A stretch of 64,000 nucleotides of DNA from Membranipora membranacea (lineage: Eukaryota; Bryozoa; Gymnolaemata; Cheilostomatida; Membraniporidae): the NCBI GenBank assembly GCA_914767715.1, contig OU612071.1, forward strand, positions 20,022,948-20,086,947, given 5' to 3'. Below, in pieces: positions 346 to 55,499 of this stretch; positions within the stretch are counted from its first letter, which is position 1; every line of letters begins with the position of its first letter. The notes beneath the pieces were generated by a model, which was not told the DNA's origin, did not search any database, and saw only the letters and a list, made by a program, of their open reading frames with translations. Position numbers and translations under genes: made by a program.

Positions 346-351
346 TTTATT
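346..351 (-). promoter_or_regulatory. Poly(A) signal AATAAA overlapping the gene A stop codon
   Basis: The minus strand reads TAATAAA, so the TAA stop (350-352) overlaps a canonical AATAAA hexamer. No better hexamer is seen in the next 300 bases. All four gene copies keep it. If used, the 3' UTR would be only about 10-30 nt. Confidence 0.5.
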
Positions 352-3300
352 AGGGTGCAGTTGCCAATCTGAGTCCATTTCTTTGTCTAGCCTTGTTATT
401 TATTTGAGTAATAGGCCTATTTGCAGTCTGGATTCTATTTCTTCGCTGTCTTTTGACGCTTCTGTTTCTATTCCTCCTGCCAACATTGTTTTGCCTTTGC
501 TGGTTATTTCTTCTGTTGCCACCCCTGACAGCGCCGTTGATCTTTCTTCTACAGCATTGAAGACCCAGACCACATACTATCTCACTATACTCACAGATAA
601 GAGGGGTTGTTAGCTGAACGGTTGACGACCCATCAACAACTGGACATATCTGCAACATACAAAAAAATCTTTTATATTGCTTGGTCATATTTGAGAAATG
701 GCTATTTTATATTAAGAAAATGGATTTAATTGTGAATGTAAATATTGTGCGTTTGTGCATTCATGAAGGAACACTGATTTGCCTCACTTTTTTTCCAATT
801 AGGAAGGAAGTTCACCCTTGAATTATATACTTAAAGAGTATAACAACGTCGACCAGTGGTGAGCATACTTACTGGAATTAAACAGCTTCTTGATTTCTCA
901 GCTTCTCCCAATCCACCATTGATGCAGTTAAGTCCCGAATTTGATGGAGGGGGATCGTTGCAAACTTTCACAGCTCTCTGAATTGCCTGTATTCCAGGTG
1001 TTTGACAAGTAACAGAACAAGATCCCCAGTTTGACCACGGTCCATAGCCCCCATTCTGGGCTGACACAGGAGGCCGAGTAGAGGGCAGTGGTGCTTGGTT
1101 TGGGCAAGCCTAAAAGATTATGAAAAAAAACCCAGTAAAAACTGTTCTGAAGGAGGAATACCCATTATTGTGCCCTTTGATTATGGAGATATCAATACCT
1201 TGTGTAGTGTAGTCCGAGATATAAGAACCAAGGTCAGGGAGCTTTAGACAGTGACTACCTGCAGGATAGAGGAAGGGGGACTTCTGGGATGCGCAGGGGA
1301 GATGCGCAAGAGCCACGAGGGTGACAAGGAACCACGGCGAGACTAAGCTGAGCTAGACATACTAGAGAGGGCCAAAAGGCTACAGAACTGGTGAGTACCA
1401 TACACTATACCTTGTAAGCGCTTAATTTGCTATCAGCTGGATTTCCCAGCTAGAGAATAATTGTTGCAATAAATCTGATTCATTTGCAAATCAAACTTTA
1501 CATTCTAACTCAGCAACTCACCGGTAAATTGCATGGTACACTTGTAGTTGAAAGTGTTCCACCACATATTTTTTTAATTATCCGAGAACCTGGACCGCAA
1601 GTTACTGTACATCTCCCTGAGGTTTCCCTGCAGCGGCCACCACCAGTTCCTGATGATCTTTGTGTACCAACACAAGCCTGTTTTTAAAAAGGTTTAAGGC
1701 ATTAGTTATCTGATGCTTCCAAAACATAACTGTTCGACTTAGCCAATTGACTCGCCAGGCTTAAGTGAATAGCCTCCATCGAGAGCCTTCACTTCAAAAT
1801 AATTCACATTTGACGGTAAAAGAGAAAACTCATAAGGTTCGACAATGCCTTCATCAAACAAACTGATGATTATATAAAAAGTCATGCCACTGTCAACTAA
1901 AAGCAGCTCTTGCCTGAGACTGACATCATATATGAAATACTTTGCAGGATATGTGTGCAAGTCACTGTTCTTTTTCATATTCACAAGTGAATTCATTGTC
2001 ATTCTTACAAATTCTTATCAATAAAGGGTCTCTAGTGCAGATGTGTTGAAAAAACATTTCTGAAGCTAGCTGATTATGGTGTGATTGATTTGCCTTTATT
2101 ATTTTGATGCAGAACACACTGCTGCTCTCTACCTGAGTGTTGCAGGCTCTGCTCTTTGTGGAACTTCCTGGGCAATTTTGTCCATTTCCTGCTGGTTCTG
2201 GGTTAGTGCATGTACGGGATTTTGTTTGTGTACCAGCGCCGCAAGGTCTCGAGCACACATCATACTTTCCAAAATCACTCCAGCCTCCATCACACTACAA
2301 TATAAGACAGTGGTTAGGGTCTTACGATATTCTATAGGGATACAGTATCACAGTATCTCGTATATTTGCATATTACTTGACCTTATCTCTTACCGTGGTG
2401 ATCTACGCAATTTTCAGTGACCATTATTTATAATTATTCCCCAACAACATCGGTAAAAACACAAAACAAGAGAAAAACATCTTTTAACATGGTTTACTCA
2501 CATCCATAGTGCATTGAAATCCTGTCTGTGTAGTGATTCCTGTACAATCTTGACCATTCCTTGCCTGTGGTGGGTTGGTACATGATCTTGTTCTGGTCTG
2601 TGTCCCAGTACCACATGTAACAGAACAGGTACCACTCTGCCATTCGGTAAATCCTCCATTAACGTCACACTGCAAACGAAGTACCAATAACTATAGATAA
2701 GCAAAAGCGGGCACTAGGAATTATTTTTTAATCATTTATTTGAATTTAATACAGGTGGCTGGAATATTAGGGAGCTGAAGCTCAAGGCACTTCAAGTGTT
2801 GTTTTCAAAGAGCCATTTCACCAGTTCCCATATGTTGTAACTGAGTATGTTTTGTCTCTCATCCTAACTTCAGATCAGTTTCAAAGTTCAACGCAAAATT
2901 CCAAATGTTTAGGATCAAAACCGTGTCTTTGTCAAATGAGCGATGAACTTACTATTCTGGGATTGCAGGTTGCAATTCTGGTTGAGTCTCCAGGGCATGT
3001 CTGACCAGCTGCTACAGGAGTCGGGTTATTACACATTCTTGTGTCTGTTTGTGATCCTGTGCCACAAGTAACTGAGCAAGTACCAAGCTGCCAATCTCCC
3101 CAATTTCCATTTACATCACACTGTAATCAATAAAATATACATTAAATATTACCATAGGTGCCTTGAAGCATAGCGAACAGAGGAACATTTTTAAGTAAAA
3201 GCAATATAACCAAAAAATGATTTGTATGTTTAATTTGCTTGTGTCCAGTAAAAGGGCCTATATAAGCTTTCAATGAAATATGAATCGGTAATCGAGGCAT

Positions 3301-6300
3301 ACAAGACAATTTTAGTTACTTTGTGACAAGAAGCTAATTTACAATATGTTCCTAAATCTTAATGGAAATGGTGTTTGGACACCATTCCTGATATTGGGTT
3401 GATACAGTATCTACAGGATTACATGCACATTTACTCGAGATATTTTCCTTTTTGGAAGTACTTTGGTGTTCTTTATATTATCCGAGAAAGAACAAGTTAA
3501 ACTATTTGGTAAGAGATAGAACCGATTTACCACCGAGACATTTTATGCTTGGCATAGTATTGACCCACCATCACAGATTGGGTGTTATTTCACCATTGAG
3601 CAGATAAATTAGTCCCACAGTATCAGGAAAAGGAAGTGACAAGATTATTGGGCATTGTTATTCTCCCCAGGCTGGAATTCGGTTATATACAAAACAAACT
3701 CTCTGACTACCTGAAGTTAGGAGGCAGTGACTCAGGCAATACCATTTATATTTTTTGTTTAGTTCTTAAATATAAAAAAATGTGAGTCTTCAGCACTTCT
3801 TACAACAGAATGTATGAACTTGAAGGGCAACCAAGGTTTCGAAGGGAAGCATAAATGGGTAGTAAAGAATGTGCTTAGCAGCATAAGTTTCATGCATGAC
3901 GCCATGCAAAACTCAAAGTAGTTGCTGACTCTTAGCTGAGCAACACTAAAGCTTCGGGGAGGTTGAAAGATGTTGCTGTAGCCTAATAATTATAAAGCAC
4001 AGGCTAAATATAACAGGAACAGGAAAGTGCTCTGTGAGGTTCGATATTATTTGAGTTTGGGTCGCAATTAAGCACCTAATGGATGAAATGTTTCAAGAGA
4101 ATTCCCACTGAAAAATTATCCGATTTATATTTGGCCTTTTTCCCTATGCATAAGGTGCAATCTGCTATCAATCGATGAGTTCTTGTTTGAAACCCTCATT
4201 TGAAAGTCTTCAGCACTTCTTAAAACAGAATTTATGAACCTAACTTACTGGTTTTATGAAGCATAATCTAGAGTCCGAGGCCGGTCCTTGACAAGCTGTG
4301 CCATCATCCATAGGAGCTGGCATTGTACATGTCCGGGTTCTTTCCATACTTCCAAGTCCGCAAGTTGCGGAACAACTTCCCCACTGTGACCACTCTGTGA
4401 AGCCCCCTTCAGTAGGACACTGGATAAAGCATGAAAATATTATTCTTTACCACAGGATAACTGATAATACTGCAAGCCTCTTGTGAAGTTGCGTTGCCCA
4501 CATTCAGCTTAGTCTTGTATTTGTGAGTTAAGAAAATCCGCATGTTGCTAGCTATTCAGCAGAACAGCAATTATGATATTCTTAGAACAGATGTTAATAT
4601 GTTCACGGGTAGTACTCCAAAACTTTCAGCATAGGTTACCCATAGTCAATTTCTTCATGCTAGCTCTGAAGTGTTTTGGTATATACTCACAACATTATTA
4701 GACTCGCATACAAATTCTGTTTGTATGTCAGCGCCTGATGATGAACAGTCAGATCCACCAAACTGAGGTACCGGGTTATTACAAATCCTCTGCCTGGTCT
4801 GTCTGCCTGATCCGCATGTCGCAGAACAATCTCCAACAGTCATCCAGTCGGAGTAACCTCCGTTCACTGGGCACTGGAAATGATGATTGAGACGATTGCA
4901 AGCCACATTTAATGCTGATCAGAGGATGACTATTTAAAAGTCCGTCCATTTCAACATCAAAACACTACCGATGTATAATCAGTTCGATGCAAACTAATAT
5001 GAATCAATAGAAACAAGTCATTGGTGTCTAAAAAGTGTTCACTTAAGCCAACAGATTTCCTTTACAATACATTACCCAACTCTACTTACATTTGGTACAG
5101 GTTGGATACATTGTGACTCCTTCGTGTCTACCCCTGAACAACCGAGGCCTGAACCTGCTTGGCCGGTACATTGCCTGGTGAAGATGGCAGTTGCATCCTC
5201 CCCACAGGTAGCTGCGCATTCTCCCGTTTGCACCCAATTGGACCAGAACCCATCCACTGGACACTAAAGTAAGACAAGGACATGTTCAACTCGCAATTAT
5301 TGATGCAATAAATAGAAGTTTGCAAATGTATAGACATCAAATATGGCTCAATCCATTGTTCAATCGAGTAGTGGTTATGATAATAAAACATTTGTAAAGC
5401 AAAAATATAGTACACATTGGCTACAAGGACAAGTGATTACTCACAACTACTATTGGAGTACAGGCGACAGTAGAAGGTTGTTCCATGTCACCTCTGCAGT
5501 CTGATCCACCAAAAAAGGGTAGCGGATTTGTACACTCCCTTGTTTGGATAAATGTCCCAGCTCCACAGGTAACTGAACACCGACTTGTTATGGCCCATTC
5601 AGTAAATCCTCCATCGACCGGACACTGCAATCAAAAATTTATAATCATCAAATAAACATGAAATTAAAATGATGACCATCGAACCCATACCACAACACAG
5701 CACAACTGCCTTGGATCACTCCACTTAAAGCTTGAAGTGAAGGGCCAAATATATGGAAGGAAAAATAATCTAATATAATCCTATATATATATATTAGGAA
5801 TGTCTGAATATGTCCTCAGATATTTTGCACTTAGAGTTTTGAATAATGTTGGAAATTGAATCTGCCTAATAACCTTATTAAGATGCGCATTTTTCTTCGC
5901 TAGTTAAAAATCCGAGGGTACTTGGGGATCATATAGTAAGACTACTTACTGGTCCAAGATTACATGGTGATATTGCTGTCTCTGTGTCAGCACCGTATTG
6001 AGTACAATCTTCTCCGCAGTATGCTGGTGCTGGATCAGTACAGATCCTTGTTCTAAAGCCAGTTCCCTCTCCACAAGTTGCAGAACAGGTTGCATGAGCC
6101 CAGTTTGTATAACGACCATTTACTGGACACTGATAAATCAATGTTACCATGTTAACTTTGATACGGCTGTTTTAATTTACAAACAGTTGATTTCAGTTGT
6201 ACGTGTACATACCTTAACTGTGAATCTCTATTTGTGAGCATATACAGGGTCATAATATATTCTAAAAACCATTCAGTCATTAAGATGCAACTAATTCATG

Positions 6301-8018
6301 TCATTAAACAACCCAATAAGGAAAAAGCTGTGATTAGCTGAACTTTGTTGTACTTACTGGTAGCGGTGTTACTGTAATAGTGAGATAAAGATCGGCAGGA
6401 CTCTCTAGTGGGTCACACTTATTGTTTGAACGGCGAGGCTCACATGTCACTGCTGCTCTCTCACCAGTTGGGCAAGGCAGGGTTCCACCATAATTATATC
6501 CGGCAGATGAGTGCAATAGAACTTCTAAGCTGCCAGGTCCATCTGAGCAAGCGGAAAAAATAAGTCATGTATTTAATTCGTTGTTGCGAAAGCATGTTTT
6601 TTACTTAGTTTATTCAAAGCTTTCCTTTGGTGGTCTCAACGAAAAATCCAAAATAAGAGTACCACTAAATGCTATCGCAGGTGTTCTTGAACTAACTTTA
6701 CTGAAATTGGCGTGTGTTTGAACGAATAAAAATAATGAAAACCCAGTTACTGTCTCACCCACCTCCAGCATCAAGCGTGATTGTTCTTGAGCCTCCGATA
6801 CTGAAGCTTACGGGAGTAGCTGATGTTGTCGGTACTGTTTTACAGACTGGGTCCAGGTTTGGTACTTGAACCAACCGACCACGATATTGTGCTAAAAATC
6901 CATAACATAGGAAACTGTAACATTGATGTGAAATTGAGAAGAAAAGTATTGTTCATTACTACCCTAAAAGCTAGGGGACACTCTGTTGTTGCTGCAAGAA
7001 AGTTACATATTTAGGCTGTACATGAGTAACAATGAGTTTTTGTGTTTTCAGATTTGATCCAGCTTGTAGCAAACTCAGGGGCCAGAGAGTTAAAAAGTTA
7101 AGTCCAATGAGCACTAGCGCCAAACTTCCATGGTAACTGGTTTGATGTGGTATGTAACTCAAGTACTGATTCTCAACCGAAAAAAATCAAAGTATTACTG
7201 ACTAACCTCAAAAACAAGGAGGCTGCTCTGAACTTGCTTCAACAGAGCTACGTCTCTAGGCTGTACATGAGTGAAGATTTGATTCCCAAAGCTGAGCTTG
7301 CGAATTTAAACCATCTTTTAACAATTTGGTGGCCATCTGGAAATGAAGTCCAAGGAGAAATATCATCAAGCTTACCTGGTTCGCCAGTCACGCACAGGCT
7401 GAAACCTCCGTTTGGACCAGATTGCGCAATATTCTCGTCGTAACACTCAGATACAGGTAATATACAGATCAAACGACTCCCAGAGGCATCACACTCCCTC
7501 TGTTCAACTTTTAAACAAGTTTCTAAATGCGTGCATGAATCGACTGCAACAACATAAACAAAGACTTTTTCTGTTATGTTAATTCTGAGTATATACATAA
7601 TATTGAGTAATTAATGTAGATATATAGCCATCACATAAGACAGGTTATAACCATGAGGTATGACCTAGACTAAGAATACTGATATGTTGACGACATGACA
7701 TATTGACCCGTAGACAAAATTGATATATTTTATCACACAATGAACAACTACATGAGTTTCAATCATGAAATCTGAGGAGACATTTTTGTGTTTCTGCAAG
7801 TCTAATGAAATCTATATTTATCATAAAGTTTAACTTACATTGACAATGTGCAGATGCTGTAAGGTATACCACTGCTAGACCTACAACAGATAATTGAGTG
7901 AGTTATATCATATGCCATATGCCAACATAGGAGTGATGTGGTTAAATTGCAGCCAATTGAGATCTCACAATTGAATGAACTTACCGACAATCACCAACAT
8001 ATTCCCTAATTGTTCCAT
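350..8018 (-). CDS. Secreted multi-TSP1-module protein, paralog A (16 exons, 878 codons)
   Basis: Exons, 5' to 3' on the minus strand: 7985-8018, 7839-7880, 7376-7543, 6763-6891, 6358-6542, 5950-6129, 5445-5624, 5090-5263, 4691-4873, 4249-4419, 2953-3120, 2502-2669, 2133-2294, 1522-1677, 873-1109, 350-649. All junctions are GT-AG and the phases agree throughout. Residues 1-25 are a signal peptide starting [12 protein letters not shown] with an ASA cleavage motif. Residues 26-81 hold six cysteines, 82-124 include the paralog-variable segment, and 125-186 form a beta-rich linker. Ten TSP1-type modules, one per phase 0-0 exon, span 187-779; WxxW is seen in the modules of exons 8, 10, 11 and 15, and CSVTCG in exons 7, 11 and 12. 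Residues 780-878 form an Arg/Asn-rich tail with an RQRR furin-type site. An in-frame ATG at 8063 is an alternative start but would bury the signal peptide. TSP1 modules bind glycosaminoglycans and receptors outside cells; the specific role is unknown. Confidence 0.87.
1756..1939 (-). other. Conserved open segment in intron 13 of gene A (dead or cryptic exon)
   Basis: A 61-codon open segment reading [14 protein letters not shown] near its start lies between exons 13 and 14. The equivalents in genes B and C are also open and have a consensus AG acceptor and GTGAGT donor; here the donor is GCGAGT. At 184 nt it would shift the frame of exon 14, so it is not part of the main reading frame. No domain family recognised. 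Confidence 0.4.
3121..4248 (-). other. Intron 10 of gene A, no gene seen
   Basis: This 1.1-kb intron separates the TSP1 exons 10 and 11. I find no exon-like or RNA-like sequence. The site near 3767-3775 (gttcttaaatat) is the empty target of the small inverted-repeat element present in genes B and C. Confidence 0.6.
6856..6878 (-). other. Paralog-variable segment of exon 4, gene A
   Basis: This 23-base stretch lies between a conserved downstream edge (gtcca on the plus strand) and a conserved upstream edge (ccacgat). It encodes roughly RLVQVPN and has no cysteine. The corresponding stretches in genes B and C are 38 and 35 bases with unrelated residues and two cysteines each. The surrounding exon and intron are almost identical in the three genes. 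Confidence 0.85.
7147..7345 (+). pseudogene. Non-LTR retrotransposon ORF1-like fragment in intron 3 of gene A
   Basis: A plus-strand open segment inside the intron encodes [14 protein letters not shown] and, further on, [12 protein letters not shown]. This resembles the C-terminal part of LINE ORF1 proteins, where a run of basic and hydrophobic residues is followed by an (I/Y)xxEDLxP motif. It is antisense to the host gene and present at the same site in genes B and C, so it predates the duplications. Family assignment is by motif only. Confidence 0.45.
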
Positions 8019-8399
8019 GATGCTCTCTGCAGAGCTGTCCAGTAAGAAATGACAACCGGTCATCCTCGGCCTCTTTACTATCTGAACTCGGCAGACACTT
8101 ATGGTCAGGTATAAATGGAGGGCAAACCCAGCCATAATGAGCGCAATCTCACGTCCAATTGGTTTAATGGTTCGGCTAAGCTGTTTGAAGCCAGGTGACA
8201 GAAATAACACATACCTGACATTCCATGTTTATAAAGTATAAAATCAAGGCAATTTGTTTTTACCTGTGCTGTGTTGGCCAGAGAGAATTAATTATGATCT
8301 AGCTGGAGCAGCATCTTGTCAATTAATCCATCGCTACATCCTATGTCGTAAAAGACCTTTTTTTGCAGGATAATTCATTATCTAAGCTATAGTGGTTTT

Positions 8400-10840
8400 T
8401 TAATGAATGTTTTCATGCATAAATAATTGTATTTATCTTTTGCTACCAGGTAGCGGATTGGTAAGAGGACATAATCTGATAGTAGCACACCTGGTATTAT
8501 CTGAAGTTAAATCTGACAAATAATGTCAGCTCATCATGACGCCCAGGCATTTAATTATGATGTAGCTGATACCAAAATTTTTGTTCATTACCGAATATTA
8601 AGGTTACATTACATACAAAATCTTTAATCCTATATGTAATGAGAAATATTACCATTGGCACAAACCCAAATTGGTCACACCCAGTCACAGAAGGAGCTAA
8701 ACTTTGAAACAGCAAAAAGTTTTAGGATGCTGATTTCACCACTCATAAGACATACAGACATAGACTACAATCGTAGTTGAGTTCAATGTGTCACTCCATC
8801 ACATATCACATCAACTTTTGAGAGGAGACTGACGCGTCAAATTTTGATTAATGGGTTCAGACTTTTCACACAAACTTTAGGTTTAGTGGTGTGTACCTCT
8901 GTCACTGCAAACAGTCCCTGATAATATTTTCTCTCGCCAAAGAACCAGAGGATAATAAAACCCCACCCAAAGCGAAAGATTTATTGATGAGTGTGTGTCA
9001 GAGTTAGTAAGCAATTTAGTTTTAAATATAAGCCTGTAAATTATATCACAGATACACAGATAATCTTGATCCGCCAGTGCTGGGCGTTGATATTGGGTGA
9101 CATATATTTAAGTCGCTCTTTTTATCCGCTGACTTTTCATTCAGTGCTATTCAGCTCGCCACAAAATTTCCGCCAAACATTAACTAAATGTCATGTTTAA
9201 GCTGATTGAAGATAGATGAACTGATTTAAGAGGTGAGAGGTGACTGACGCACCAAATTTTGACTAATGAGTTCAGATCTTGTTAAATATGAGATTAGTTA
9301 TATCACGCAGATAATCTTGATCTGCCAGTGCTGGGCGTTGATATCCAGTGACATCTGGGGGGGGGGGGGGGGGGGTTTAATGAATGTTTTTATGCATAAA
9401 TATTTGTATTTATCTTTTGCTACCAGGTAGGGATTGGTAAGAGGACATAATCTGATAGTAGCACACCTGGTATTATCTGAAGTTAAATCTGACAAATAAT
9501 GTCAGCTCATCATGACGCCCAGGCATTTAATTATGATGTAGCTGATACCAAAATTGTTGTTCATTACCGAATATTAAGGTTTCATTACATACAAAATCTT
9601 TAATCCTCTATGTAGTGAGAAAAATTACCATTGGCACAAACCCAAATTGATTGGTCACACCCAGTCACAGAAGGAGCTAAACTTTGAAACAGCAAAAAGT
9701 TTTAGGAAGCTGATTTCACCACTCATAAGACATACAGACATAGACTAGAATAGTAGTTGAGTTCAATGTGCCACTCCATCACATATCACTTCAACTTTTG
9801 AGAGGAGATTGACGCATTGAATTTTGATTAATGGGTTCAGACTTTTCACACAAACTTTAGGTTTAGTGGTGTGTACCTCTGTCACTGAAAACAGTCCCTG
9901 ATAATATTTTCTCTCGCCAAAGAACCTGAGGATAATAAAACCCCACCCAAAGCAAAAGATTTATTGATGGGTGTGTGTCAGAGTTAGTAAGCAATATAAT
10001 TTTATATATAAGCCTGTAAATTATATCACAGATACACAGATAATCTTGATCCGCCAGTGCTGGGCGTTGATATCGGGTGACATATATTTAAGTCGTTCTT
10101 TTTATCTGGTGACTTTTCATTCAGTGCTATTCAGCTGCCACAAAATTTCCCTCAAACATTAACTTAATGTCATGTTTAAGCTGATTGAAGATAGATGAAC
10201 TGAATTAAGAGGTGAGAGGTGACTGACTCACCAAATTTAGATTAATGAGTTCAGATCTTTTTAAATATGAGATTAGTTATATCACACAGATAATCTTGAT
10301 CTGCCAGTGCTGGGCATTGATATCCAGTGACATCTGGGGGGGGGGGGGGGTTAATGAATGTTTTTATGCATAAATAATTGTATTTATCTTTTGCTACCAG
10401 GTAGCGGATTGGTAAGAGGACATAATCTGATAGTAGCACACCTGGTATTATCTGAAGTTAAACCTGACAAATAATGTCAGCTCATCATGACGCCCAGGCA
10501 TTTAATTATGATGTAGCTGATACAAAAATTGTTGTTCATTACCGAATATTAAGGTTACATTACATACAAAATATTTAATCCTATATGAAGATAGATGAAC
10601 TGAATTAAGAGGTGAGAGGTGACTGACACACCAAATTTTGATTAATGAGTTCAGATCTTTTTAAATATGAGCTTAGTTATATCACGCAGATAATCTTGAT
10701 CCGCCAGTGCTGGGCGTTGATATCGGGTGACATATATTTGAGTCGTTCTTTTTGTCTGGTGACTTTTCATTCAGTGATATTCAGCTCGCCAAAAAACAAT
10801 CTTGATCAGTGTAGGCGTGTGCATCGGGTGATATATATTT
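8400..10840. repeat. Tandem triplication of about 0.97 kb in the unit 1 spacer
   Basis: The block beginning ttaatgaatgtttt..atgcataaat starts near 8398, 9378 and 10352, and the third copy is truncated near 10840. Copies 2 and 3 start right after poly-G runs at 9357-9375 (19 G) and 10336-10350 (15 G). Inside each block a sub-motif (ccgccagtgctgggcgttga) recurs. No coding potential; short ORFs here are by chance. Confidence 0.85.
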
Positions 10841-14673: not shown

Positions 14674-14679
14674 TTTATT
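14674..14679 (-). promoter_or_regulatory. Poly(A) signal AATAAA overlapping the gene B stop codon
   Basis: Same TAATAAA arrangement as gene A, with the stop at 14678-14680. Confidence 0.5.
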
Positions 14680-17600
14680 AGGGTGCAGTTGCCAATCTGA
14701 GTCCATTTCTTTGTCTAGCCTTGTTATTTATTTGAGTAATAGGCCTATTTGCAGTCTGGATTCTATTTCTTCGCTGTCTTTTGACGCTTCTGTTTCTATT
14801 CCTCCTGCCAACATTGTTTTGCCTTTGCTGCTTATTTCTTCTGTTGCCACCCCTGACAGCGCCGTTGTTCTTTCTTCTACAGCATTGAAGACCCAGACCA
14901 CATACTCTCTCATTATACTCACAGATAAGAGGGGTTGTTAGCTGAACGGTTGACGACCCATCAACAACTGGACATATCTGCAACACACAAAAAAATCTTT
15001 TATATTGCTTGGTCATATTTGAGAAATGGCTATTTTATATTAAGAAAATGGATTTAATTGTGAATGTAAATATTGTGCGTTTGTGCATTCAAGAAGGAAC
15101 ACTGATTTGCCTCACTTTTTTTCCAATTAGGAAGGAAGTTCACCCTTGAATTATATACTTAAAGAGTATAACAACGTCGACCAGTGGTGAGCATACTTAC
15201 TGGAATTAAACAGTTTCTTGATTTCTCAGCTTCTCCCAATCCACCATTGATGCAGTTAAGTCCAGAATTTGATGGAGGGGGATCGTTGCAAACTCTCACA
15301 GCTCTCTGAATTGCCTGTATTCCAGGTGTTTGACAAGTAACAGAACAAGATCCCCAGTTTGACCACGGTCCATAGCCCCCATTCTGGGCTGACACAGGAG
15401 GCCGAGTAGAGGGCAGTGGTGCTTGGTTTGGGCAAGCCTAAAAGATTATGAAAAAAAAACCAGTAAAAACTGTTCTGAAGGAGGAATACCCATTATTGTG
15501 CCCTTTGATTATGGAGATATCAATACCTTGTGTAGTGTAGTCCGAGATATAAGAACCAAGGTCAGGGAGCTTTAGACAGTGACTACCTGCAGGATAGAGG
15601 AAGGGGAACTTCTGGGATGCGCAGGGGAGATGCGCAAGAGCCACGAGGGTGACAAGGAACCACGGCGAGACTAAGCTGAGCTAGACATACTAGAGAGGGC
15701 CAAAGGGCTACAGAACTGGTGAGAACCATACACTATACCTTGTAAGCGCTTTATTTGCTATCAGCTGAATTTCCCAGCTAGAGAATAATTGTTGCAATAA
15801 ATCTGACTCATTTGCAAATCAAACTTTACATCCTAACTCAGCAACTCACCGGTAAATTGCATGGTACACTTGTAGTTGAAAGTGTTCCACCGCATATTTT
15901 TTTAATTATCCGAGAACCTGAACCGCAAGTTACTGTACATCTCCCTGAGGTTTCCCTGCAGCGGCCACCACCAGTTCCTGATGATCTTTGTGTACCAACA
16001 CAAGCCTGTTTTTAAAAAGGTATAAGGCATTAGTTATCTGATGCTTCCAAAACATAACTGCTCGACTTAGCCAATTAACTCACCAGGCTTATGTGAATAG
16101 CCTCTATCGAGAGCCTTCACTCCAAAATAATTCACATTTGACGGTAGAAGAGAAAAGTCATAAGGTTCGACAATGCCTTCATCAAACAAACTGACGATGA
16201 TATAAAAAATCGTGCCACTCTCAACTAAAAGCAGCTCTTGCCTGAGACTTACATCATATATGAAACACTATGCAGGACCATGTGTGCAAGTCACTGTTCT
16301 TTTTCATATTCATAAGTGATTTCATTGTCATTCTTACAAATTCTTATCAATAAAGGGTCTCTAGTGAATATGTGTTGAAAAAACATTTCTAAAGCTAGCG
16401 GATTATGGTGTGATTGATTTGCCTTTACTATTTTGATGCAGAACACACTGCTGCTCTTTACCTGAGTGTTGCAGGCTCTGCTCTCTGTGGAACTTCCTGG
16501 GCAATTTTGTCCATTTCCTGCTGGTTCTGGGTTAGTGCAAGTACGGGATTTTGTTTGTGTACCACCGCCGCAAGGTCTCGAGCACACATCATACTTTCCA
16601 AAATCACTCCAGCCTCCATCGCACTACAATATAAGACAGTGGTTAGGGTCTTACGATATTCTATAGGGATACAGTATCACAGTATCTCGTATATTTGCAT
16701 ATTACTTGACCTTATCTCTTACCGTGGTGATCTACGCAACTTTCAGTGACCATTATTTATAATTATTCCCCAACAACATCGGTAAAAACACAAAACAAGA
16801 GAAAAACATCTTTTAACATGGTTTACTCACATCCTTAGTGCATTGAAATCCTGTCTGTGTAGTGATTCCTGTACAATCTTGACCATTCCCTGCCTGTGGT
16901 GGGTTGGTACATGATCTTGTTCTGGTCAGTGTCCCAGTACCACATGTAACAGAACAGGTACCACTCTGCCATTCGGTAAATCCTCCATTAACGTCACACT
17001 GCAAACGAAATACCAATATTTATAGATAAGCAAAAGTGGGCACTAGGAATTATTTTTTAATCATTTATTTGAATTTAATACAGGTGGCTGGAATATTGGG
17101 GAGCTGAAGCTTAACGCACTTCAAGCGTTGTTTTCAAAGAGCCAGTTCACCTGAGAAAGTCTAAATTGTTCCCCATATGTTTTAACTGAGTATGTTTTGT
17201 CTCTCATCCTAATTTCAGATCAGTTTCAAAGATCAACGCAAAATTCCAAATGTTTAGGATTAAAACCGTGTCTTTGTCAAATGAGCGATGAACTTACTAT
17301 TCTGGGATTGCAGGTTGCAATTCTGGTTGAGTCTCCAGGGCATGTCTGACCAGCTGCTACAGGAGTCGGGTTATTACACATTCTTGTGTCTGTTTGTGAT
17401 CCTGTGCCACAAGTAACTGAGCAAGTACCAAGCTGCCAATCTCCCCAATTTCCACTTACATCACACTGTAATCAATAAAATATACATTAAATATTACCAT
17501 AGGAGTCTTGAAACATAGCAAACAGGGGAACATTTTTAAGTAAAAACAATATAAACAAAAATATGATTTGTATGTTTAATTTGCTTGTGTCCAGTAAAAG

Positions 17601-20600
17601 GGCCTATATAAGCTTACAATGAAATATGAATCGGTAATCGAGGCATACAAGACAATTTTAGTTACTTTGTGACAAGAAGCTAATTTACAATACGTTCCTA
17701 AATCTTAATGGGAATGGTGTTTGGACACCATTCCTGATATTGGGTTGATACAGTATCTACAGGATTGCATGCACATCTACTCGAGATATTTTCCTTTTTG
17801 GAAGTACTTTGGTGTTCTTTATATTATCAGAGAAAGAACAAGACCGATTTACCACCGAGACATTTTATGCAGGGCATAGTATTGAGCCACCATAACAGAT
17901 TGGGTGTTATTTCACCATTGAGCAGATAAATTAGTCCCACAGTATCAGGAAAAGGAAGTGACAAGATTATTGGGCATTGTTATTCTCCCCAGGCTGGAAT
18001 TCGGTTATATACAATACAAACTCTCTGACTACCTGAAGTTAGGAGGCAGTGAGTGTGGCAATACCATTTATACTTTTTGTTTAGTTCTTAAAGACTTTGT
18101 TTGAGGCTGCTCTTTTGTATCACATATTATTCTCCATATTTTATTCTATCATGTTGGCGATTTTCAGCTTTTCAGATTTTCCGAGAATAAGATGCAAATA
18201 CAAAAGAGCAGCCTCAAACAAAGTCTCCAGATATAACAAAATGTGAGTCTTCAGCACTTCTTACAACAGAATGTATGAACTTGAAGGGCAACCAAGGTTT
18301 CGAAGGGAAGCATAAATGGGAGTAATGAATGTGTTTAGCAGCATAAGTTTCATGCATGACGCCATGCAAAACTCAAAGTAGTTGCTGACTCTTAGCTGAG
18401 CACACTAAAGCTTCGGGGAGGTTGAAAGATGTTGCTGTAATAATTATAAAGCACAGGCTAAATATAACAGGAACAGGAAAGTGCTCTGTGAGGTTCGATA
18501 TTATTTGAGTTTGGGTAGCAATTAAGCACCTAATGGATGAAATGTTTCAAGAGAATTCCCACTGAAAAATTATCCGATTTATATTTGGCCTTTTTCCCTA
18601 TGCATAAGGTTCAATCTGCTATCAATCAATGAGTACTTGTTTGAAACCCTCATTTGAAAGTCTTCAGCACTTGTTAAAACAGAATTTATGAACCTAACTT
18701 ACTGATTTTATGAAGCATACTCTAGAGTCGGAGGCCGGTCCTTGACAAGCTGTGCCATCATCCATAGGAGCTGGCATTGTACATGTCCGGGTTCTTTCCA
18801 TACTTCCGAGTCCGCAAGTTGCAGAACAACTTCCCCACTGTGACCACTCTGTGAAGCCCCCTTCAGTAGGACACTGGATAAAGCATGAAAATATTATTCT
18901 TTACCACAGGACAACTGATAATACTGCGAGCCTCTTGTGAAGTTGCGTTGCCCACATTCAGCTTAGTCTTGTATTTGTGAGTTAAGAAAATCCGCACGTT
19001 GCTAGCTATTCAGCAGAACAGCAATTATGATATTCTTAGAACAGATGTTAATATGTTCACGGGTAGTACTCCAAAACTTTCAGCATAGGTTACCCATAGT
19101 CAATTTCTTCATGCTAGCTCTGAAGTGTTTTGGTACATACTCACAACATTATTAGACTCGCATACAAATTCTGTTTGTATGTCAGCGCCTGATGATGAAC
19201 AGTCAGATCCACCAAACTGAGGTACCGGGTTATTACAAATCCTCTGCCTGGTCTGCCTGCCTGATCCGCATGTCGCAGAACAATCTCCAACAGTCATCCA
19301 GTCGGAGTAACCTCCGTTCACTGGGCACTGGAAATGATGATTGAGACGATTGCAAGCCACATTTAATGCTGATCAGAGGATGACTATTTAAAAGTCCGTC
19401 CATTTCAACATCAAAACACTACCGATGTATAATCAGTTCGATGCAAACTAATATGAATCAATAGAAACAAGTCATTGGTGTCTAAATAGTGTTCACTTAA
19501 GCCAACAGATTTCCTTTACAATACATTACCCAACTCTTCTTACATTTGGTACAGGTTGGATACATTGTGACTCCTTCGTGTCTACCCCTGAACAACCGAG
19601 GCCTGAACCTGCTTGGCCAGTACATTGCCTGGTGAAGATGGCAGTTGCATCCTCCCCACAGGTAGCTGCGCATTCTCCTGTTTGCACCCAATTGGACCAG
19701 AACCCATCCACTGGACACTAAAGTAAGACAAGGACATGTTCAACTCGCAATCACTTATGCAATAAATAGAAGTTGGCAAATGTATAGACATCAAATATGG
19801 CTCAATCCATTGTTCAATCGAGTAGTGGTTATGATAATAAAACATTTGTGAAGCAAAAATATAGTACACATTGGCTACAAGGACAAGTGATTACTCACAA
19901 CTACTATTGGAGTACAGGCGACAGTAGAAGGTTGTTCCATGTCACCTCTGCAGTCTGATCCACCAAACAAGGGTAGAGGATTTGTACACTCCCTTGTTTG
20001 GATAAATGTCCCAGCTCCACAGGTAACTGAACACCGACTTGTTATGGCCCATTCAGTAAATCCTCCATCGACCGGACACTGCAATCAAAAATTTATAATT
20101 ACCAAATAAACATGAAATTAAAATGATGACCATCGAACCCATACCACAGCACAGCACATCTGCCTGGGATTACTCCACTTAAAGCTTGAAGTAAAGGGCC
20201 AAATATATGGAAGAAAGAATAATCTAATAAAATCCTATATATATATATATATATATAATTATTAGGAATGTCTGAATATAGTTTGTCCTCAGCTATATTG
20301 TACTTAGAGTTTTGAATAATGTTGGAAATTGAATCTGCCTAATAACCTTATTAAGATGCGCTTATTCTTCGCTAGTTAAAAATCGGAGGGTACTTGGGGA
20401 TCATATAGTAAAACTACTTACTGGTCCAAGATTACATGGTGATATTGCTGTCTCTGTGTCAGCACCGTATTGAGTACAATCTTCTCCGCAGTATGCTGGT
20501 GCTGGATCAGTACAGGTCCTTGTTCTAAAGCCAGTTCCCTCTCCACAAGTTGCAGAACAGGTTGCATGAGCCCAGTTTGTATAACGACCATTTACTGGAC

Positions 20601-22505
20601 ACTGATAAATCAATGTTACCATGTTAACTTTGATACGGCTGTTTTAATTTACAAACAGGTGATTTCAGTTGTACGTGTACATACATTAACTGTGAATCTC
20701 TATTTGTGAGCATATACAGGGTCAATTATTCTAAAAACCATTCAGTCATTAAGATGCAACTAATTCATGTCATTAAACAACCCAATAAGAAAAAAGCTGT
20801 GATTAGCTGAACTTTGTTGTACTTACTGGTAGCGGTGTTACTGTAATAGTGAGATAAAGATCGGCAGGACTCTCTAGTGGGTCACACTTATTGTTTGAAC
20901 GGCGAGGCTCACATGTCACTGCTGCTCTCTCACCAGTTGGGCAAGGCAGAGTTACACCATAAGTATATGAGGCAGATGAGTGCAATAGAACTTCTAAGCT
21001 GCCAGGTCCATCTGAGCAAGCGGAAAAGATAAGTCATGCATTTAATTCATTGTTGCGAAAGCATATTTTTTACTTAGTTTATTTAAAGCTTTTCTTTGGT
21101 GGTCTCAACGAAAAATCCAAAATAAGAGTACCACTAAATGCTATCGCAGGTGTTCTTGAACTAACTTTACTGAAATTGGCGTGTGTTTGAACGAATAATA
21201 ATAATGAAAACCCAGTTACTGTCTCACCCACCTCCAGCATCAAGTGTGATTGTTCTTGAGCCTCCGATACTGAAGCTTACGGGAGTAGCTGATGTTGTCG
21301 GTACTGTTTTACAGACTGAGTCCAGATTTACCTGGATTCCACAACCTGGACCACATATATTACCACGATTCTGCGCTAAAAATCCATAACATAGGAAACT
21401 GTAACATTGATGTGAAATTGAGAAGAAAAGTATTGTTCATTACTACCCTAAAAGCTAGGGGACACTCTGTTGTTGCTGCAAGAAAGTTACATATTTAGGC
21501 TGTACATGAGTAACAATGAGTTTTTGTGTTTTCAGGTTTGATCCAGCTTGTAGGAAACTCAGGGGCCAGAGAGTTTAAAAGTTAAGTCCAATGAGCACTA
21601 GCGCCAAACTTCCATGGTAACTGGTTTGATGTGGTATGTAACTCAAGTACTGATGCTCAACTGAAAACAATCACAGTATTACTGACTAACCTCAAAAACA
21701 AGGAGGCTGCTCTGAACTTGCTTCAACAGAGCTACGTCTCTAGGCTGTACATGAGTGAAGATTTGATTCCCAAAGCTGAGCTTGCGAGTTTAAACCATCT
21801 TTTAACAATTTGGTGGCCATCTGAAAATGAAGTCCAATGAGAAAGATCATCAAGCTTACCTGGTTCGCCAGTCACGCACAGGCTGAAACCTCCGTTTGGA
21901 CCAGATTGCGCAATATTCTTGTCGTAACACTCAGATACAGGTAATATACAGATCAAACGACTCCCAGAGGCATCACACTCCCTTTGTTCAACTTTTAAAC
22001 AAGTTTCTAAATGCGTGCATGAATCAACTGCAACAACATAAACAAAGACTTTTCCTGTTATGTTAATTCTGAGTATATATATAATATTGAATAATTAATG
22101 TAGATATATAGCTATCACATAAGACAGGTTATAACCATGAGGTATGACCTAGACTAAGAATACTGACATGTTGACAACATGACATATTGACCCTTAGACA
22201 AAATTGATATTATATTTTATCACACAATGAACAACTACATGAGTTTCAATCAAGAAATCTGAGGAGACATCTTTGTGTTTCTGCAAGTCTAATGAATTCT
22301 ATATTTATCATAAAGTTTAACTTACATTGACAATGCGCAGATGCTGTAAGGTATACCACTGCTAGACCTACAACAGATAAATAAGTGAGTTATATCATAG
22401 GCCATATGCCAACATAGGAGTGATGTGGTTAAATTGTAGCCAATTGAGTTCTCACAATTGAATGGACTTACCGACAATCACCAACATATTCCCTGATTGT
22501 TCCAT
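14678..22505 (-). CDS. Secreted multi-TSP1-module protein, paralog B (16 exons, 883 codons)
   Basis: Exons: 22472-22505, 22326-22367, 21860-22027, 21232-21375, 20827-21011, 20422-20601, 19899-20078, 19544-19717, 19145-19327, 18703-18873, 17298-17465, 16831-16998, 16462-16623, 15850-16005, 15201-15437, 14678-14977. Every exon matches gene A in length except exon 4, which is 15 nt longer. No stop or frameshift was found, so it should be functional if transcribed. Domain order is as in A: signal peptide (starts [12 protein letters not shown]), six-Cys segment, variable segment, linker, ten TSP1-type modules, basic tail. Differences from A are scattered single substitutions outside exon 4, such as N to S in the WGDW module and an ERVC change in the final exon. 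The exon 8 donor is GTAAGA. Intron 10 carries a 135-bp inverted-repeat element that A lacks. Confidence 0.87.
16084..16267 (-). other. Conserved open segment in intron 13 of gene B (cryptic exon)
   Basis: 61 open codons ([18 protein letters not shown] at the start) bounded by an AG acceptor at 16268-16269 and a GTGAGT donor. The length of 184 nt would shift exon 14 out of frame and give an early stop. It could be an NMD-type switch exon or a fossil. Confidence 0.4.
18092..18226. mobile_element. 135-bp inverted-repeat element (MITE) in intron 10 of gene B
   Basis: Ends are agactttgtttgaggctgct and its complement; the arms are about 35 bp. It is flanked by TTAA on the left and a diverged CCAG on the right. 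The empty site is intact in gene A near 3770. An ortholog is at 32060-32193, and a longer relative with the same ends is at 46228-46810. Confidence 0.85.
20237..20260. repeat. (AT)n microsatellite in intron 6 of gene B
   Basis: The run is short in gene A (about 5786-5796), medium here and long in gene C (34202-34249). Confidence 0.85.
21325..21362 (-). other. Paralog-variable segment of exon 4, gene B
   Basis: 38 bases, encoding about NICGPGCGIQ with two cysteines. Flanks match genes A and C. It is 15 nt longer than A and 3 nt longer than C, so the frame is kept. Confidence 0.85.
21631..21840 (+). pseudogene. Non-LTR retrotransposon ORF1-like fragment in intron 3 of gene B
   Basis: Ortholog of the gene A insertion, encoding the same [12 protein letters not shown] motif. 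It is inherited from before the duplication. Confidence 0.45.
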
Positions 22506-28611: not shown

Positions 28612-28617
28612 TTTATT
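28612..28617 (-). promoter_or_regulatory. Poly(A) signal AATAAA overlapping the gene C stop codon
   Basis: TAATAAA as in genes A and B; the stop is at 28616-28618. Confidence 0.5.
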
Positions 28618-31600
28618 AGGGTGCAGTTGCCGATCTGAGTCCATTTCTTTGTCTAGCCTTGTTATTTATTTGAGTAATAGGCCTATTTGCAGTCTGGATT
28701 CTATTTCTTCGCTGTCTTTTGACGCTTCTGTTTCTATTCCTCCTGCCAACACTGTTTTGCCTTTGCTGGTTATTTCTTCTGTTACCACCCCTGACAGCGC
28801 CGTTGATCTTTCTTCTACAGCATTGAAGACCCAGACCACATACTCTCTCATTATACTCACAGATAAGAGGGGTTGTTAGCTGAACGGTTGACGACCCATC
28901 AACAACTGGACATATCTGCAACATACAAAAAAATCTTTTATATTGCTTGGTCATATTTGAGAAATCGCTATTTTATATTAAGAAAATGGATTAAAATGTG
29001 AATGTAAATATTGTGCGTTTGTGCATTCATGAAGGAACACTGATTTGCCTCACTTTTTTTCCAATTAGGAAGGAAGTTCACCCTTGAATTATATACTTAA
29101 AGAGTATAACAACGTCGACCAGTGGTGAGCATACTTACTGGAATTAAACAGTTTCTTGATTTCTCAGCTTCTCCCAATCCACCATTGATGCAGTTAAGTC
29201 CAGAATTTGATGGAGGGGGATCGTTGCAAACTCTCACAGCTCTCTGAATTGCCTGTATTCCAGGTGTTTGACAAGTAACAGAACAAGATCCCCAGTTTGA
29301 CCACGGTCCATAGCCCCCATTCTGGGCTGACACAGGAGGCCGAGTAGAGGGCAGTGGTGCTTGGTTTGGGCAAGCCTAAAAGATTATGAAAAAAAAACCA
29401 GTAAAAACTGTTCTGAAGGAGGAATACCCATTATTGTGCCCTTTGATTATGGAGATATCAATACCTTGTGTAGTGTAGTCCGAGATATAAGAACCAAGGT
29501 CAGGGAGCTTTAGATAGTGACTACCTGCAGGATAGAGGAAGGGGGACTTCTGGGATGCGCAGGGGAGATGCGCAAGAGCCACGAGGGTGACAAGGAACCA
29601 CGGCGAGACTAAGCTGAGCTAGACATACTAGAGAGGGCCAAAGGGCTACAGAACTGGTGAGAACCATACACTATACCTTGTAAGCGCTTTATTTGCTATC
29701 AGCTGAATTTCCCAGCTTGAGAATAATTGTTGCAATAAATCTGACTCATTTGCAAATCAAACTTTACATCCTAACTCAGCAACTCACCGGTAAATTGCAT
29801 GGTACACTTGTAGTTGAAAGTGTTCCACCGCATATTTTTTTAATTATCCGAGAACCTGAACCGCAAGTTACTGTACATCTCCCTGAGGTTTCCCTGCAGC
29901 GGCCACCACCAGTTCCTGATGATCTTTGTGTACCAACACAAGCCTGTTTTTAAAAAGGTATAAGGCATTAGTTATCTGATGCTTCCAAAACATAACTGCT
30001 CGACTTAGCCAATTAACTCACCAGGCTTATGTGAATAGCCTCTATCGAGAGCCTTCACTCCAAAATAATTCACATTTGACGGTAGAAGAGAAAAGTCATA
30101 AGGTTCGACAATGCCTTCATCAAACAAACTGACGATGATATAAAAAATCGTGCCACTCTCAACTAAAAGCAGCTCTTGCCTGAGACTGACATCATATATG
30201 AAACACTATGCAGGACCATGTGTGCAAGTCACTGTTCTTTTTCATATTCATAAGTGATTTCATTGTCATTCTTACAAATTCTTATCAATAAAGGGTCTCT
30301 AGTGAATATGTGTTGAAAATACATTTCTAAAGCTAGCGGATTATGGTGTGATTGATTTGCCTTTACTATTTTGATGCAGAACACACTGCTGCTCTTTACC
30401 TGAGTGTTGCAGGCTCTGCTCTCTGTGGAACTTCCTGGGCAATTTTGTCCATTTCCAGTTGGTTCTGGGTTAGTGCAAGTACGGGATTTTGTTTGTGTAC
30501 CACCGCCGCAAGGTCTCGAGCACACATCATACTTTCCAAAATCACTCCAGCCTCCATCGCACTACAATATAAGACAGTGGTTAGGGTCTTACGATATTCT
30601 ATAGGGATACAGTATCACAGTATCTCGTATATTTGCATATTACTTGACCTTATCTCTTACCGTGGTGATCTACGCAATTTTCAGTGACCATTATTTATAA
30701 TTATTCCCCAACAACATCGGTAAAAACACAAAACAAGAGAAAAACATCTTTTAACATGGTTTACTCACATCCTTAGTGCATTGAAATCCTGTCTGTGTAG
30801 TGATTCCTGTACAATCTTGACCATTCCCTGCCTGTGGTGGGTTGGTACATGATCTTGTTCTGGTCAGTGTCCCAGTACCACATGTAACAGAACAGGTACC
30901 ACTCTGCCATTCGGTAAATCCTCCATTAACGTCACACTGCAAACGAAATACCAATATTTATAGATAAGCAAAAGTGGGCACTAGGAATTATATTTTAATC
31001 ATTTATTTGAATTTAATACAGGTGGCTGGAATATTGGGGAGCTGAAGCTTAACGCACTTCAAGTGTTGTTTTCAAAGGGCCAGTTCACCTGAGAAAGTCT
31101 AAATTTTTCCCCATATGTTTTAACTGAGTATGTTTTGTCTCTCATCCTAATTTCAGATCAGTTTCAAAGATCAACGCAAAATTCCAAATGTTTAGGATTA
31201 AAACCGTGTCTTTGTCAAATGAGCGATGAACTTACTATTCTGGGATTGCAGGTTGCAATTCTGGTTGAGTCTCCAGGGCATGTCTGACCAGCTGCTACAG
31301 GAGTCGGGTTATTACACATTCTTGTGTCTGTTTGTGATCCTGTGCCACAAGTAACTGAGCAAGTACCAAGCTGCCAATCCCCCCAATTTCCACTTACATC
31401 ACACTGTAATCAATAAAATATACATTAAATATTACCATAGGAGTCTTGAAGCATAGCAAACAGGGGAACATTTTTAAGTAAAAACAATATAAACAAAAAT
31501 ATGAATTGTATGTTTAATTTGCTTGTGTCCAGTAAAAGGGCCTATATAAGCTTTCAATGAAATATGAATCGGTAATCGAGGCATACAAGACAATTTTAGT

Positions 31601-34202
31601 TACTTTGTGACAAGAAGCTAATTTACAATACGTTCCTAAATCTTAATGGAAATGGTGTTTGGACACCAATCCTCATATTGGGTTGATACAGTATCTACAG
31701 GATTGCATGCACATCTACTTGAGATATTTTCCTTTTTGGAAGTACTTTGGTGTTCTTTATATTATCAGAGAAAGAACAAGCAAATTTTAAACTATTTGGT
31801 AAGAGATAGAACAGATTTACCACTGAGACATTTTATGCTGGGCATAGTATTGAGCCACCATAACAGATTGGGTGTTATTTCACCATTGAGCAGATAAATT
31901 AGTTCCACAGTATCAGGAAAAGGAAGTGACAAGATTATTGAGCATTGTTATTCTCCCCAGGCTGGAATTCGGTTATATACAATACAAACTCTCTGACTAC
32001 CAGAAGTTAGGAGGCAGTGAGTCAGGCAATACCATTTATATTTTTTGTTTAGTTCTTAAAGACATTGTTTGAGGCTGCTCTTTTGTATCACATCTTATTC
32101 TCCATATTTTATTCTATTATGTTGGCGATTTTCAGCTTTTCAGATTTTCCGAGAATAAGATGTGATACAAAAGAGCAGCCTCAAACAAAGTCTCTAAATA
32201 TAACAAAATGTGAGTCTTCAGCACTTCTTACAACAGAATGTATGAACTTGAAGGGCAACCAAGGTTTCGAAGGGAAGCATAAATGGGAGTAATGAATGTG
32301 TTTAGCAGCATAAGTTTCATGCATGACGCCATGCAAAACTCAAAGTAGTTGCTGACTCTTAGCTGAGCACACTAAAGCTTCGGGGAGGTTGAAAGATGTT
32401 GCTGTAATAATTATAAAGCACAGGCTAAATATAACAGGAACAGGAAAGTGCTCTGTGAGGTTCGATTTTATTTGAGTTTGCGTAGCAATTAAGCACCTAA
32501 TGGATGAAATGTTTCAAGAGAATTCCCACTGAAAAATTATCCGATTTATATTTGGCCTTTTTCCCTATGCATAAGGTGCAATCTGCTATCAATCAATGAG
32601 TACTTGTTTGAAACCCTCATTTGAAAGTCTTCAGCACTTCTTAAAACAGAATTTATGAACCTAACTTACTGATTTTATGAAGCATAATCTAGAGTCCGAG
32701 GCTGGTCCTTGACAAGCTGTGCCATCATCCATAGGAGCTGGCATTGTACATGTCCGGGTTCTTTCCATACTTCCGAGTCCGCAAGTTGCGGAACAACTTC
32801 CCCACTGTGACCACTCTGTGAAGCCCCCTTCAGTAGGACACTGGATAAAGCATGAAAATATTATTCTTTACCACAGGACAACTGATAATACTGCGAGCCT
32901 CTTGTGAAGTTGCGTTGCCCACATTCAGCTTAGTCTTGTATTTGTGAGTTGAGAAAATCCGCATGTTGCTAGCTATTCACCAGAACAGCAATTATGATAT
33001 TCTTAGAACAGATGTTAATATGTTCACGGGTAGTACTCCAAAACTTTCAGCATAGGTTACCCATAGTCAATTTCTTCATGCTAGCTCTGAAGTGTTTTGG
33101 TATATACTCACAACATTATTAGACTCGCATACAAATTCTGTTTGTATGTCAGCGCCTGATGATGAACAGTCAGATCCACCAAACTGAGGTACCGGGTTAT
33201 TACAAATCCTCTGCCTGGTCTGTCTGCCTGATCCGCATGTCGCAGAACAATCTCCAACAGTCATCCAGTCGGAGTAACCTCCGTTCACTGGGCACTGGAA
33301 ATGATGATTGAGATGATTGCAAGCCAATTTTAATGCTGATCAGAGGATGACTATTTAAAAGTCCGTCCATTTCAACATCAAAACACTACCGATGTATAAT
33401 CAGTTCGATGCAAACTAATATGAATCAATAGAAACAAGTCATTGGTGTCTAAAAAGTGTTCACTTAAGCCAACAGATTTCCTTTACAATACATTACCCAA
33501 CTCTACTTACATTGGGTACAGGTTGGATACATTGTGACTCCTTCGTGTCTACCCCTGAACAACCGAGGCCTGAACCTGCTTGGCCAGTACATTGCCTGGT
33601 GAAGATGGCAGTTGCATCCTCCCCACAGGTAGTTGCGCATTCTCCCGTTTGCACCCAATTGGACCAGAACCCATCCACCGGACACTAAAGTAAGACAAGG
33701 ACATGTTCAACTCGCAATTATTGATGCAATAAATAGAAGTTTGCAAATGTATAGACATCAAATATGGCTCAATCCATCGTTCAATCGAGTAGTGGTTATG
33801 ATAATAAAACATTTGTGAAGCAAAAATATAGTACACATTGGCTACAAGGACAAGTGATTACTCACAACTACTATTGGAGTACAGGTGACAGTAGAAGGTT
33901 GTTCCATGTCACCTCTGCAGTCTGATCCACCAAACAAGGGTAGAGGATTTGAACACTCCCTTGTTTGGATAAATGTCCCAGCTCCACAGGTAACTGAACA
34001 CCGACTTGTTATGGCCCATTCAGTAAATCCTCCATCGACCGGACACTGCAATCAAAAATTTATAATTACCAAATAAACATGAAATTAAAATGATGACCAT
34101 CGAACCCATACCACAGCACAGCACATCTGCCTGGGATTACTCCACTTAAAGCTTGAAGTGAAGGGCCAAATATATGGAAGAAAGAATAATCTAATAAAAT
34201 CC

Positions 34203-34252
<50 letters not shown>

Positions 34253-40669: not shown

Positions 40670-41040
40670 GGATGAACAACTCCTGGTTATTTTAAATCTG
40701 AAATACGTTTGGCTTTGCATGCCTTTGTTCTCCGTCAGCGCCAGTTTTATTGAGGGTCACTGTTGCACTAAACCATACTAAGGGTAGGTATCATGGTTTT
40801 CTTTCAAACCTAAGTTATAGAGAGATGCAACTCCTGCACGTTTCAAATCTGAAATTCATTTGGGTCTGCGAGCCTTCGCTCTCAGTCAAGGCCAGTTTTA
40901 ACGACAGTCACTCTTGCACTGAAACATACCAAAGTTGTATTTCACTTTTTTTTTCAAACCTTCTTCATACGGAGTAGCAACTCCTGCTCGTTTTAAATCT
41001 GAAATTGTTTTGGCTCTGCGGGCCTTCGTTCTCCGTCAGG
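40670..41040 (+). repeat. 150-bp satellite, about 2.4 units
   Basis: Units of the same family as 48514-55195 begin immediately after the retrotransposon (ATA)n tail, the same arrangement as at 48514. Confidence 0.85.
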
Positions 41041-42056: not shown

Positions 42057-42062
42057 TTTATT
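42057..42062 (-). promoter_or_regulatory. Poly(A) signal AATAAA overlapping the copy D stop codon
   Basis: Retained TAATAAA arrangement in the remnant; stop at 42061-42063. Confidence 0.4.
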
Positions 42063-55195: not shown

Positions 55196-55499
55196 TAATC
55201 AAATCAGCAACTTCAATTAAACTTTTAGGCATGATCATGGACCAGCATCTGTTATTGAAAACCTGTGTTCCCTGGTATTAAAAAAGTTTTATTCTGTCTC
55301 ACTAAAATTCAAAATTTGTCAATCCTTCACATCTGCTCCAAGCTTATAAATCGTAATATATACTTTTATTGTCAGCAACAATTCATTATTACAAATGTTT
55401 TTCATGATGTGACATAAATGGCATAAAAAGAAAAATGATACAAACAAAGATTTAACAAAAAATAAGACTATGCCAATAAACTGAAAAAATGTTGCATAG
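55196..55499. other. AT-rich junction, probable 3' untranslated end of the adjacent retrotransposon
   Basis: No open frame. It lies between the satellite and the retrotransposon coding remnant. Confidence 0.35.

Follow-up and report, generated by a model that had tools for sequence, protein, structure and literature searches.

Hypervariable loops at matching protein positions in two tandem arrays of predicted secreted TSP1-repeat genes of the bryozoan Membranipora membranacea

Five intact, nearly identical tandem genes on chromosome 7 (C7) of Membranipora membranacea, three of which lie in the window analysed here (64,000 nucleotides, C7:20022948-20086947), carry four distinct versions of one short exon-4 loop, all in frame, and loops at homologous positions are hypervariable in a second array on chromosome 11 (C11). 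It is most likely, at a probability of roughly 0.6, that the loops are held apart by diversifying selection, whereas the remaining sequence of a secreted binding protein, with a probable role in recognition, is homogenised by gene conversion. The tandem family would encode a secreted protein whose cysteine-rich N-terminal domain precedes some nine TSP1 repeats and a basic tail. The binding face would consist of three or four N-terminal-domain loops, of which three are located immediately before conserved cysteines or between them, and the TSP1 chain and basic tail would probably anchor the protein in a matrix or on sugars. Diversifying selection would maintain the loop differences between the copies, and ongoing gene conversion would keep the introns, the TSP1 exons, and the remaining domain nearly identical, occasionally carrying a loop from one copy into another. 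Under these two effects of conversion, the loops should be older than their surroundings and should reassort like cassettes.

Gene copies, protein architecture, and the exon-4 loop

The genome searched comprises 339,339,785 bases in 18 contigs, with 28,508,536 bases in C7; the published assembly has 339.4 Mb, with 28.51 Mb for chromosome 7 and 14.7 kb for the mitochondrion (PMC10290214), in agreement with these sizes. The COX1 gene, located on a contig of 14,741 bases, shows 92% identity to that of Membranipora grandicella. Genes A (350-8018), B (14678-22505), and C (28616-36493), all on the minus strand, each consist of 16 exons, as judged from AG/GT borders and an uninterrupted reading frame, and encode 878, 883, and 882 residues, respectively, with protein A predicted to be secreted. 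The genome search yielded two more intact copies of 16 exons just upstream of the window, E (C7:20000689-20008515) and F (C7:20012747-20020610), and the distant pseudogene X at C7:25.12 Mb, the sixth place of the chromosome 7 family. In pseudogene X, exon 3 is interrupted by a stop and an insertion, exon 7 has suffered deletions, and the frame of exon 10 is broken; exons 12-16 gave no match at their place within the 20 kb examined. Exons 16 and 15 alone of a further copy form fragment D (42061-42820, minus strand), in which the homology ends at about 43066. Upstream of gene A, the region 8399-10587 contains a stretch recurring at ~980-base spacing with 95% identity and with G runs near its borders. 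Elsewhere in the window, a tandem repeat of ~151 bases forms large arrays at 48510-55198 and 59675-61232, the latter inverted, and a small one at 40677-41038; the open frames at 47853-48230 and 55517-55990 seem to resemble a non-LTR reverse transcriptase tail.

All five intact copies are predicted to contain a signal peptide (judged by eye), an N-terminal cysteine domain (exons 3-5), TSP1 repeats, and a basic tail. In the Pfam scan of protein A, PF00090 (TSP_1) matched nine stretches (E = 5.1e-53), and only TSP1-type domains were found apart from one DUF match below its cut-off. The TSP1 block spans exons 6-15 of gene A (873-6129, from the exon chain and Pfam) and, from the exon chain, 15201-20601 in gene B and 29139-34592 in gene C, all on the minus strand, and the last exon of A (350-649) encodes the arginine/asparagine-rich tail. 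The N-terminal cysteine domain begins with exon 3 (7376-7543 in A), whose C35-C52 interval is the counterpart of a hypervariable exon-3 loop in the chromosome 11 array, and ends with exon 5 (6358-6542 in A); it covers residues 25 to about 186, and loops precede its C74 and C124. Nine cysteines are common to the ten N-terminal domains aligned from both arrays. In exon 5 of copy E (C7:20006855-20007039), one cysteine that the remaining four chromosome 7 copies retain is lost (KYDP versus KCDP), and several amino-acid changes are private.

Exon 4 lies at 6763-6891 in gene A, on the minus strand between AG and GT borders and precisely where the earlier note had drawn it, and at 21232-21375 and 35223-35363 in genes B and C according to their exon chains. 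The variable stretch stands at its start, and after it come a conserved cysteine and, at some distance, PVSFSI. The reported segments of 23, 38, and 35 bases were recovered at 6856-6878 in A (RLVQVPN, the same in copy E), 21325-21362 in B (NICGPGCGIQ(V), the core of which occurs once in the genome), and 35316-35350 in C (CPAEQEPCG), all on the minus strand, whereas the supposedly invariant edges do vary, with Q/L, Y/N, and S/A/P beside the loop. Copy F has CGVGIDCGTPV, and the loop of pseudogene X is proline-rich. Cysteines had been described as absent or paired; they are absent in A and E and paired in B and C, and F adds another pair, the two cysteines being three to six residues apart. The variable segment had also been assigned to a loop of a secreted TSP1 protein. 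The protein does contain TSP1 repeats, but the loop is placed outside any of them, in the separate N-terminal cysteine domain ahead of the chain. Palindromes were noticed by eye in the loops and carry no argument.

Divergence of the loop and homogeneity of its surroundings

The introns, previously called almost identical, differ by 0.85-3.0% per pair among the five copies and are thus near-identical but short of identity. In the alignment of A, B, and C (A 3780 to 8069, 50-column bins), each pair shows 0-4 mismatches per bin outside the loop, compared with 10, 13, and 18 in one loop bin and with 5, 3, and 8 in the bin after it; a TA repeat near 5780 varies in length among the three genes. Exon gaps total 15, 12, and 3 for the three pairs, every one a multiple of three as had been noticed at first reading, the corresponding count for intron gaps being 27/101.

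For the measurement of the exon-4 block, 57 columns (14-19 codons) were taken, with the variable edges included. Copies F and C differ there in 17 of 54 aligned columns versus 0.46 expected (Poisson P = 2.9e-21), and elsewhere in 0/85 columns of the rest of exon 4, 0/220 of intron 4, 10/483 of intron 3, and 44/5207 of all introns. The nine pairs with different loops have 13-25 substitutions and 0-15 gap columns in the block, 10-37 times their own intron divergence. In the framework (~864 codons outside the exon-4 block), pN/pS ranges from 0.23 to 0.53, with pN below pS in 10/10 pairs; the chromosome 7 framework is under purifying selection. The proposal of diversifying selection between paralogs gains from this purifying framework, from the excess of loop over intron divergence, from the in-frame length changes, and from the second array described below. 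A neutral mutation hotspot or relaxed constraint, by which the loops tolerate anything, are prone to slippage, and vary without function, appears quite unlikely: relaxed constraint alone should leave the loops at or below intron divergence, which they exceed, and the length changes preserve the frame, although the loop of pseudogene X does look like a near-repeat.

The silent changes qualify this picture. Comparable variation in synonymous sites and adjacent introns had been named as grounds for giving up the selective reading; the introns proved low in divergence, whereas the codons next to the loop show an elevated number of silent changes. Among the 11 codons edging it, with edges drawn after the alignment had been seen and P values accordingly descriptive, three change the amino acid and four vary silently, versus 45 and 34 of 861 codons elsewhere. 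This silent excess points either to a greater age of the block compared with its surroundings or to a higher mutation rate, and is not what fast amino-acid selection alone would give. Our preferred reading is that old loop variants are held apart by selection within a locus homogenised by conversion. A local mutator, germline or somatic, would also raise the silent changes at the loop edges, and belongs to an explanation in which the loops are rewritten in a directed manner, by such a mutator or by cassette conversion from a hidden donor, and selection merely sorts the products. The height of the loop divergence over that of the introns in the nine different-loop pairs, within edges a few bases wide, would suit such targeted diversification; the identity tracts and donor searches below, together with the single exon 4 in every gene (the exon search gave no mutually exclusive exon-4 copies), make it very doubtful.

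The identical run of 703 nt between E and A spans the loop, which explains why their loops are the same, while the E-A introns differ by 2.5% overall; directed rewriting is hard to match with a loop left unchanged within so long a shared tract. Further identical runs extend over 1047 nt between F and C and over 132 nt between the chromosome 11 copies L037 and L038. These tracts, read directly from the identity runs, are shorter than the genes and incongruent between segments, as concerted evolution predicts. A second source for the loops of B and F was not found genome-wide at up to 3 mismatches, each loop matching its own gene alone (counts are lower bounds, and reversed control patterns gave no match). 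Likewise, none of the five loops had a donor in 213,947 bases comprising seven 10-kb segments from chromosome 11, pseudogene X, and the chromosome 7 array with its flanks, at an allowed mismatch of up to 22-26% (11% for A); each matched its own gene, and that of A also matched E. Both searches count against a hidden donor. Of the conversion put forward in the earlier note, exchange among paralogs is borne out by the E-A run and the donor cassette is disfavoured by the single occurrence of loops B and F.

A weaker hotspot is located in exon 5, at SAGYNYGG (6484-6507 in A, with equivalents at 20953-20976 in B and 34944-34967 in C, minus strand, coordinates by offset). Five of its eight codons change the amino acid among the five copies, a number reached by 78 of 10,000 shuffles; when copy E is removed, three codons remain, which 1169 of 2000 shuffles match. 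This exon-5 cluster of the chromosome 7 array therefore depends largely on copy E, and its position coincides with that of the exon-5 loop of the chromosome 11 array.

A second array on chromosome 11

When the N-terminal domain was compared with this genome, weak matches appeared on C11, where a second array of at least eight whole or partial copies was found at C11:18.88-18.99 Mb; five of these at least eight copies were used for the loop and domain comparisons, three others being read as partial exons. In L037, TSP1 exons follow in the same order as in the window genes. The N-terminal domain of this array shows 35-39% identity to its gene A counterpart, with the nine cysteines in common. Four loops vary among the five fully read copies, in exon 3, at the start and at the end of exon 4, and in exon 5; the loop at the start of exon 4 occupies the same place as the window loop, and the hypervariable loops in exons 3, 4, and 5 are at positions homologous to those of the window genes. 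The exon-3 loops read ILAL, VDMTSLGI, VDSTGIGI, IQGV, and VAGTTGNAQAI, and the exon-5 loops, each preceding a cysteine, read NPGNAEIT, TPTGGLEIS, TPPLAPEIQ, VPPSFSEIP, and DPNSLQIT.

The introns of L038 and L039 differ at 21/1093 sites, yet all four of their loops differ, two of them in length (4 and 11 residues in exon 3, and 10 and 9 in the exon-5 segments); the introns of the other chromosome 11 pairs differ by 3-9%. The loops are reassorted among the copies: the first exon-4 loop is common to L036 and L038, and nearly to L039, and the second to L037 and L038, inside their 132-nt identical run, while the exon-3 and exon-5 loops differ in both of these pairs (L036/L038 and L037/L038). A test of the loops against the framework gave 12 of 17 loop codons versus 20 of 132 framework codons, in a comparison that aligns unequal loops from the right, omits L3 and L4a, and has boundaries set post hoc, so that its P value is descriptive. 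In the domain framework of this array, pN exceeds pS in 7/10 pairs, by which relaxed constraint or a wider selection is possible there. The chromosome 11 loops thus exceed the introns in divergence, but within a framework that is unconstrained, and this weak constraint is the second point that a functionless hotspot has in its favour.

The longest stretch common to the loops of the two arrays is 8 bases. Since the loops share so little DNA and yet occupy the same places in the domain, their variability is unlike that caused by a mutation motif, which would not follow the protein, and from these alignments seems to be set by position in the protein. The same observation weakens both alternatives introduced above: a single motif is unlikely to be the target of directed rewriting, and a neutral hotspot would have to fall on the same protein positions in different DNA. 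The two arrays separate selection at the protein level from hypermutation at a DNA motif better than one array could, and provide a clean case of loops escaping homogenisation at the same protein positions. An assembly error between near-identical copies is scarcely credible: tandem copies this similar are hard to assemble, but the published assembly is a HiFi assembly at 66-fold (PMC10290214), the four distinct loops of the five intact genes are all in frame, and the pattern recurs in the second array.

Among L045 (C11:18889380-18889980), L046, and L047 (C11:18.959-18.961 Mb), a lost exon-5 cysteine, a shortened exon 3, and an apparent exon-5 frame break were observed. With two chromosome 11 copies in which a cysteine is lost or the frame seems broken, with pseudogene X, and with copy E short of one cysteine, some members of the family look broken, which speaks against the selective reading. 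Dispersed relatives of the N-terminal domain are located at C2:9527600-9528920 (L048), C11:11842001-11852000 (L040), and C11:22035001-22045000 (L041), with a further weak one on C3; one exon match at C11:22.04 Mb contains a stop. The relatives on C2, C3, and these two other C11 places stand outside every count.

Possible recognition role and relation to known families

Near-identical copies with rewritten short loops form the pattern expected of molecules that recognise many partners, and a candidate role of the family in the recognition of self and non-self or of microbes is thereby open to test. We infer that the loops lie on the surface of the domain and bind, and that they may serve to recognise non-self, either microbes or other colonies; the recognition role itself is a reasoned guess. 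Gamete proteins, too, typically change fast in their loops. The same selection could act on a different partner, in gamete recognition, in sexual conflict, or in a structural matrix protein that has to fit partners which vary; nothing in the data points to a tissue, which leaves room for this alternative, and we rate it as fairly unlikely. Going further than the preferred reading of selected loops in a converted locus, it is tentatively conceivable, though against the odds, that the genes form a bryozoan recognition system, namely a new cysteine-domain family in which the cassette-like combination and rewriting of loops among paralogs would equip every colony with a repertoire of allorecognition or immune receptors of its own. 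If true, bryozoan self/non-self recognition would gain a first well-defined molecular entry point.

Diversified recognition families of invertebrates include the snail FREPs, the sea urchin 185/333 proteins, the amphioxus VCBPs, Hydractinia Alr, and Botryllus fester, in which variability is likewise concentrated within extracellular proteins that are duplicated or polymorphic; protein A is set apart from them by its Pfam content of TSP1-type domains and the one sub-cut-off DUF. Bryozoan colonies may fuse with close relatives only (PMC11686985). In the titles and abstract beginnings surveyed, no bryozoan gene for the control of fusion is named, save for the remark on Bugula neritina, where one paper mentions 'weak similarities' to Alr1 and names no TSP1 protein (PMC7576161). 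The present family offers concrete recognition candidates whose loops have been mapped. Besides its chromosome-level assembly, of which one haplotype is covered here, the species has a public second haplotype (GCA_914767555.1), HiFi reads (ERR6406215), and RNA-seq data (ERR6464929) (PMC10290214).

The nearest architecture met is that of the rhamnospondins of Hydractinia, a putative immune recognition family combining TSP1 repeats with a lectin domain (PMC3269628). Rhamnospondins are described as secreted proteins of a colonial animal, diversified by duplication, with a signal peptide, eight TSP1 repeats, and a non-TSP1 domain (PMC3269628, PMC4820225); the bryozoan proteins resemble them in having a hydrophobic N-terminus, judged by eye, and nine TSP_1 stretches, and by this analogy may work in a similar manner. 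In contrast, the N-terminal serine-rich part described for rhamnospondin is replaced by the cysteine domain, and its C-terminal rhamnose-binding lectin domain by the basic tail. The lectin domain (PF02140) was absent from the Pfam scan to E 10, in which the HMMER filters drop most weak matches, of protein A, of its N-terminal domain, and of its last exon, and the bryozoan family is therefore not a member of the rhamnospondins. Rewritten loops go unmentioned in the rhamnospondin descriptions compared (PMC3269628, PMC4820225).

The N-terminal domain alone gave no Pfam match to E 10, no relative among PDB sequences to E 10 with either a single sequence or the ten-domain profile, and 0 relatives at E <= 0.001 among 482 candidates in the protein database by a word-based search that can miss distant kin. 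The whole protein, in contrast, matched 1070 proteins at E <= 0.001, the best being SCO-spondin-like, coadhesin-like, and other TSP1-rich proteins, with 30-45% identity over 52-86% of the query among the 120 matches listed.
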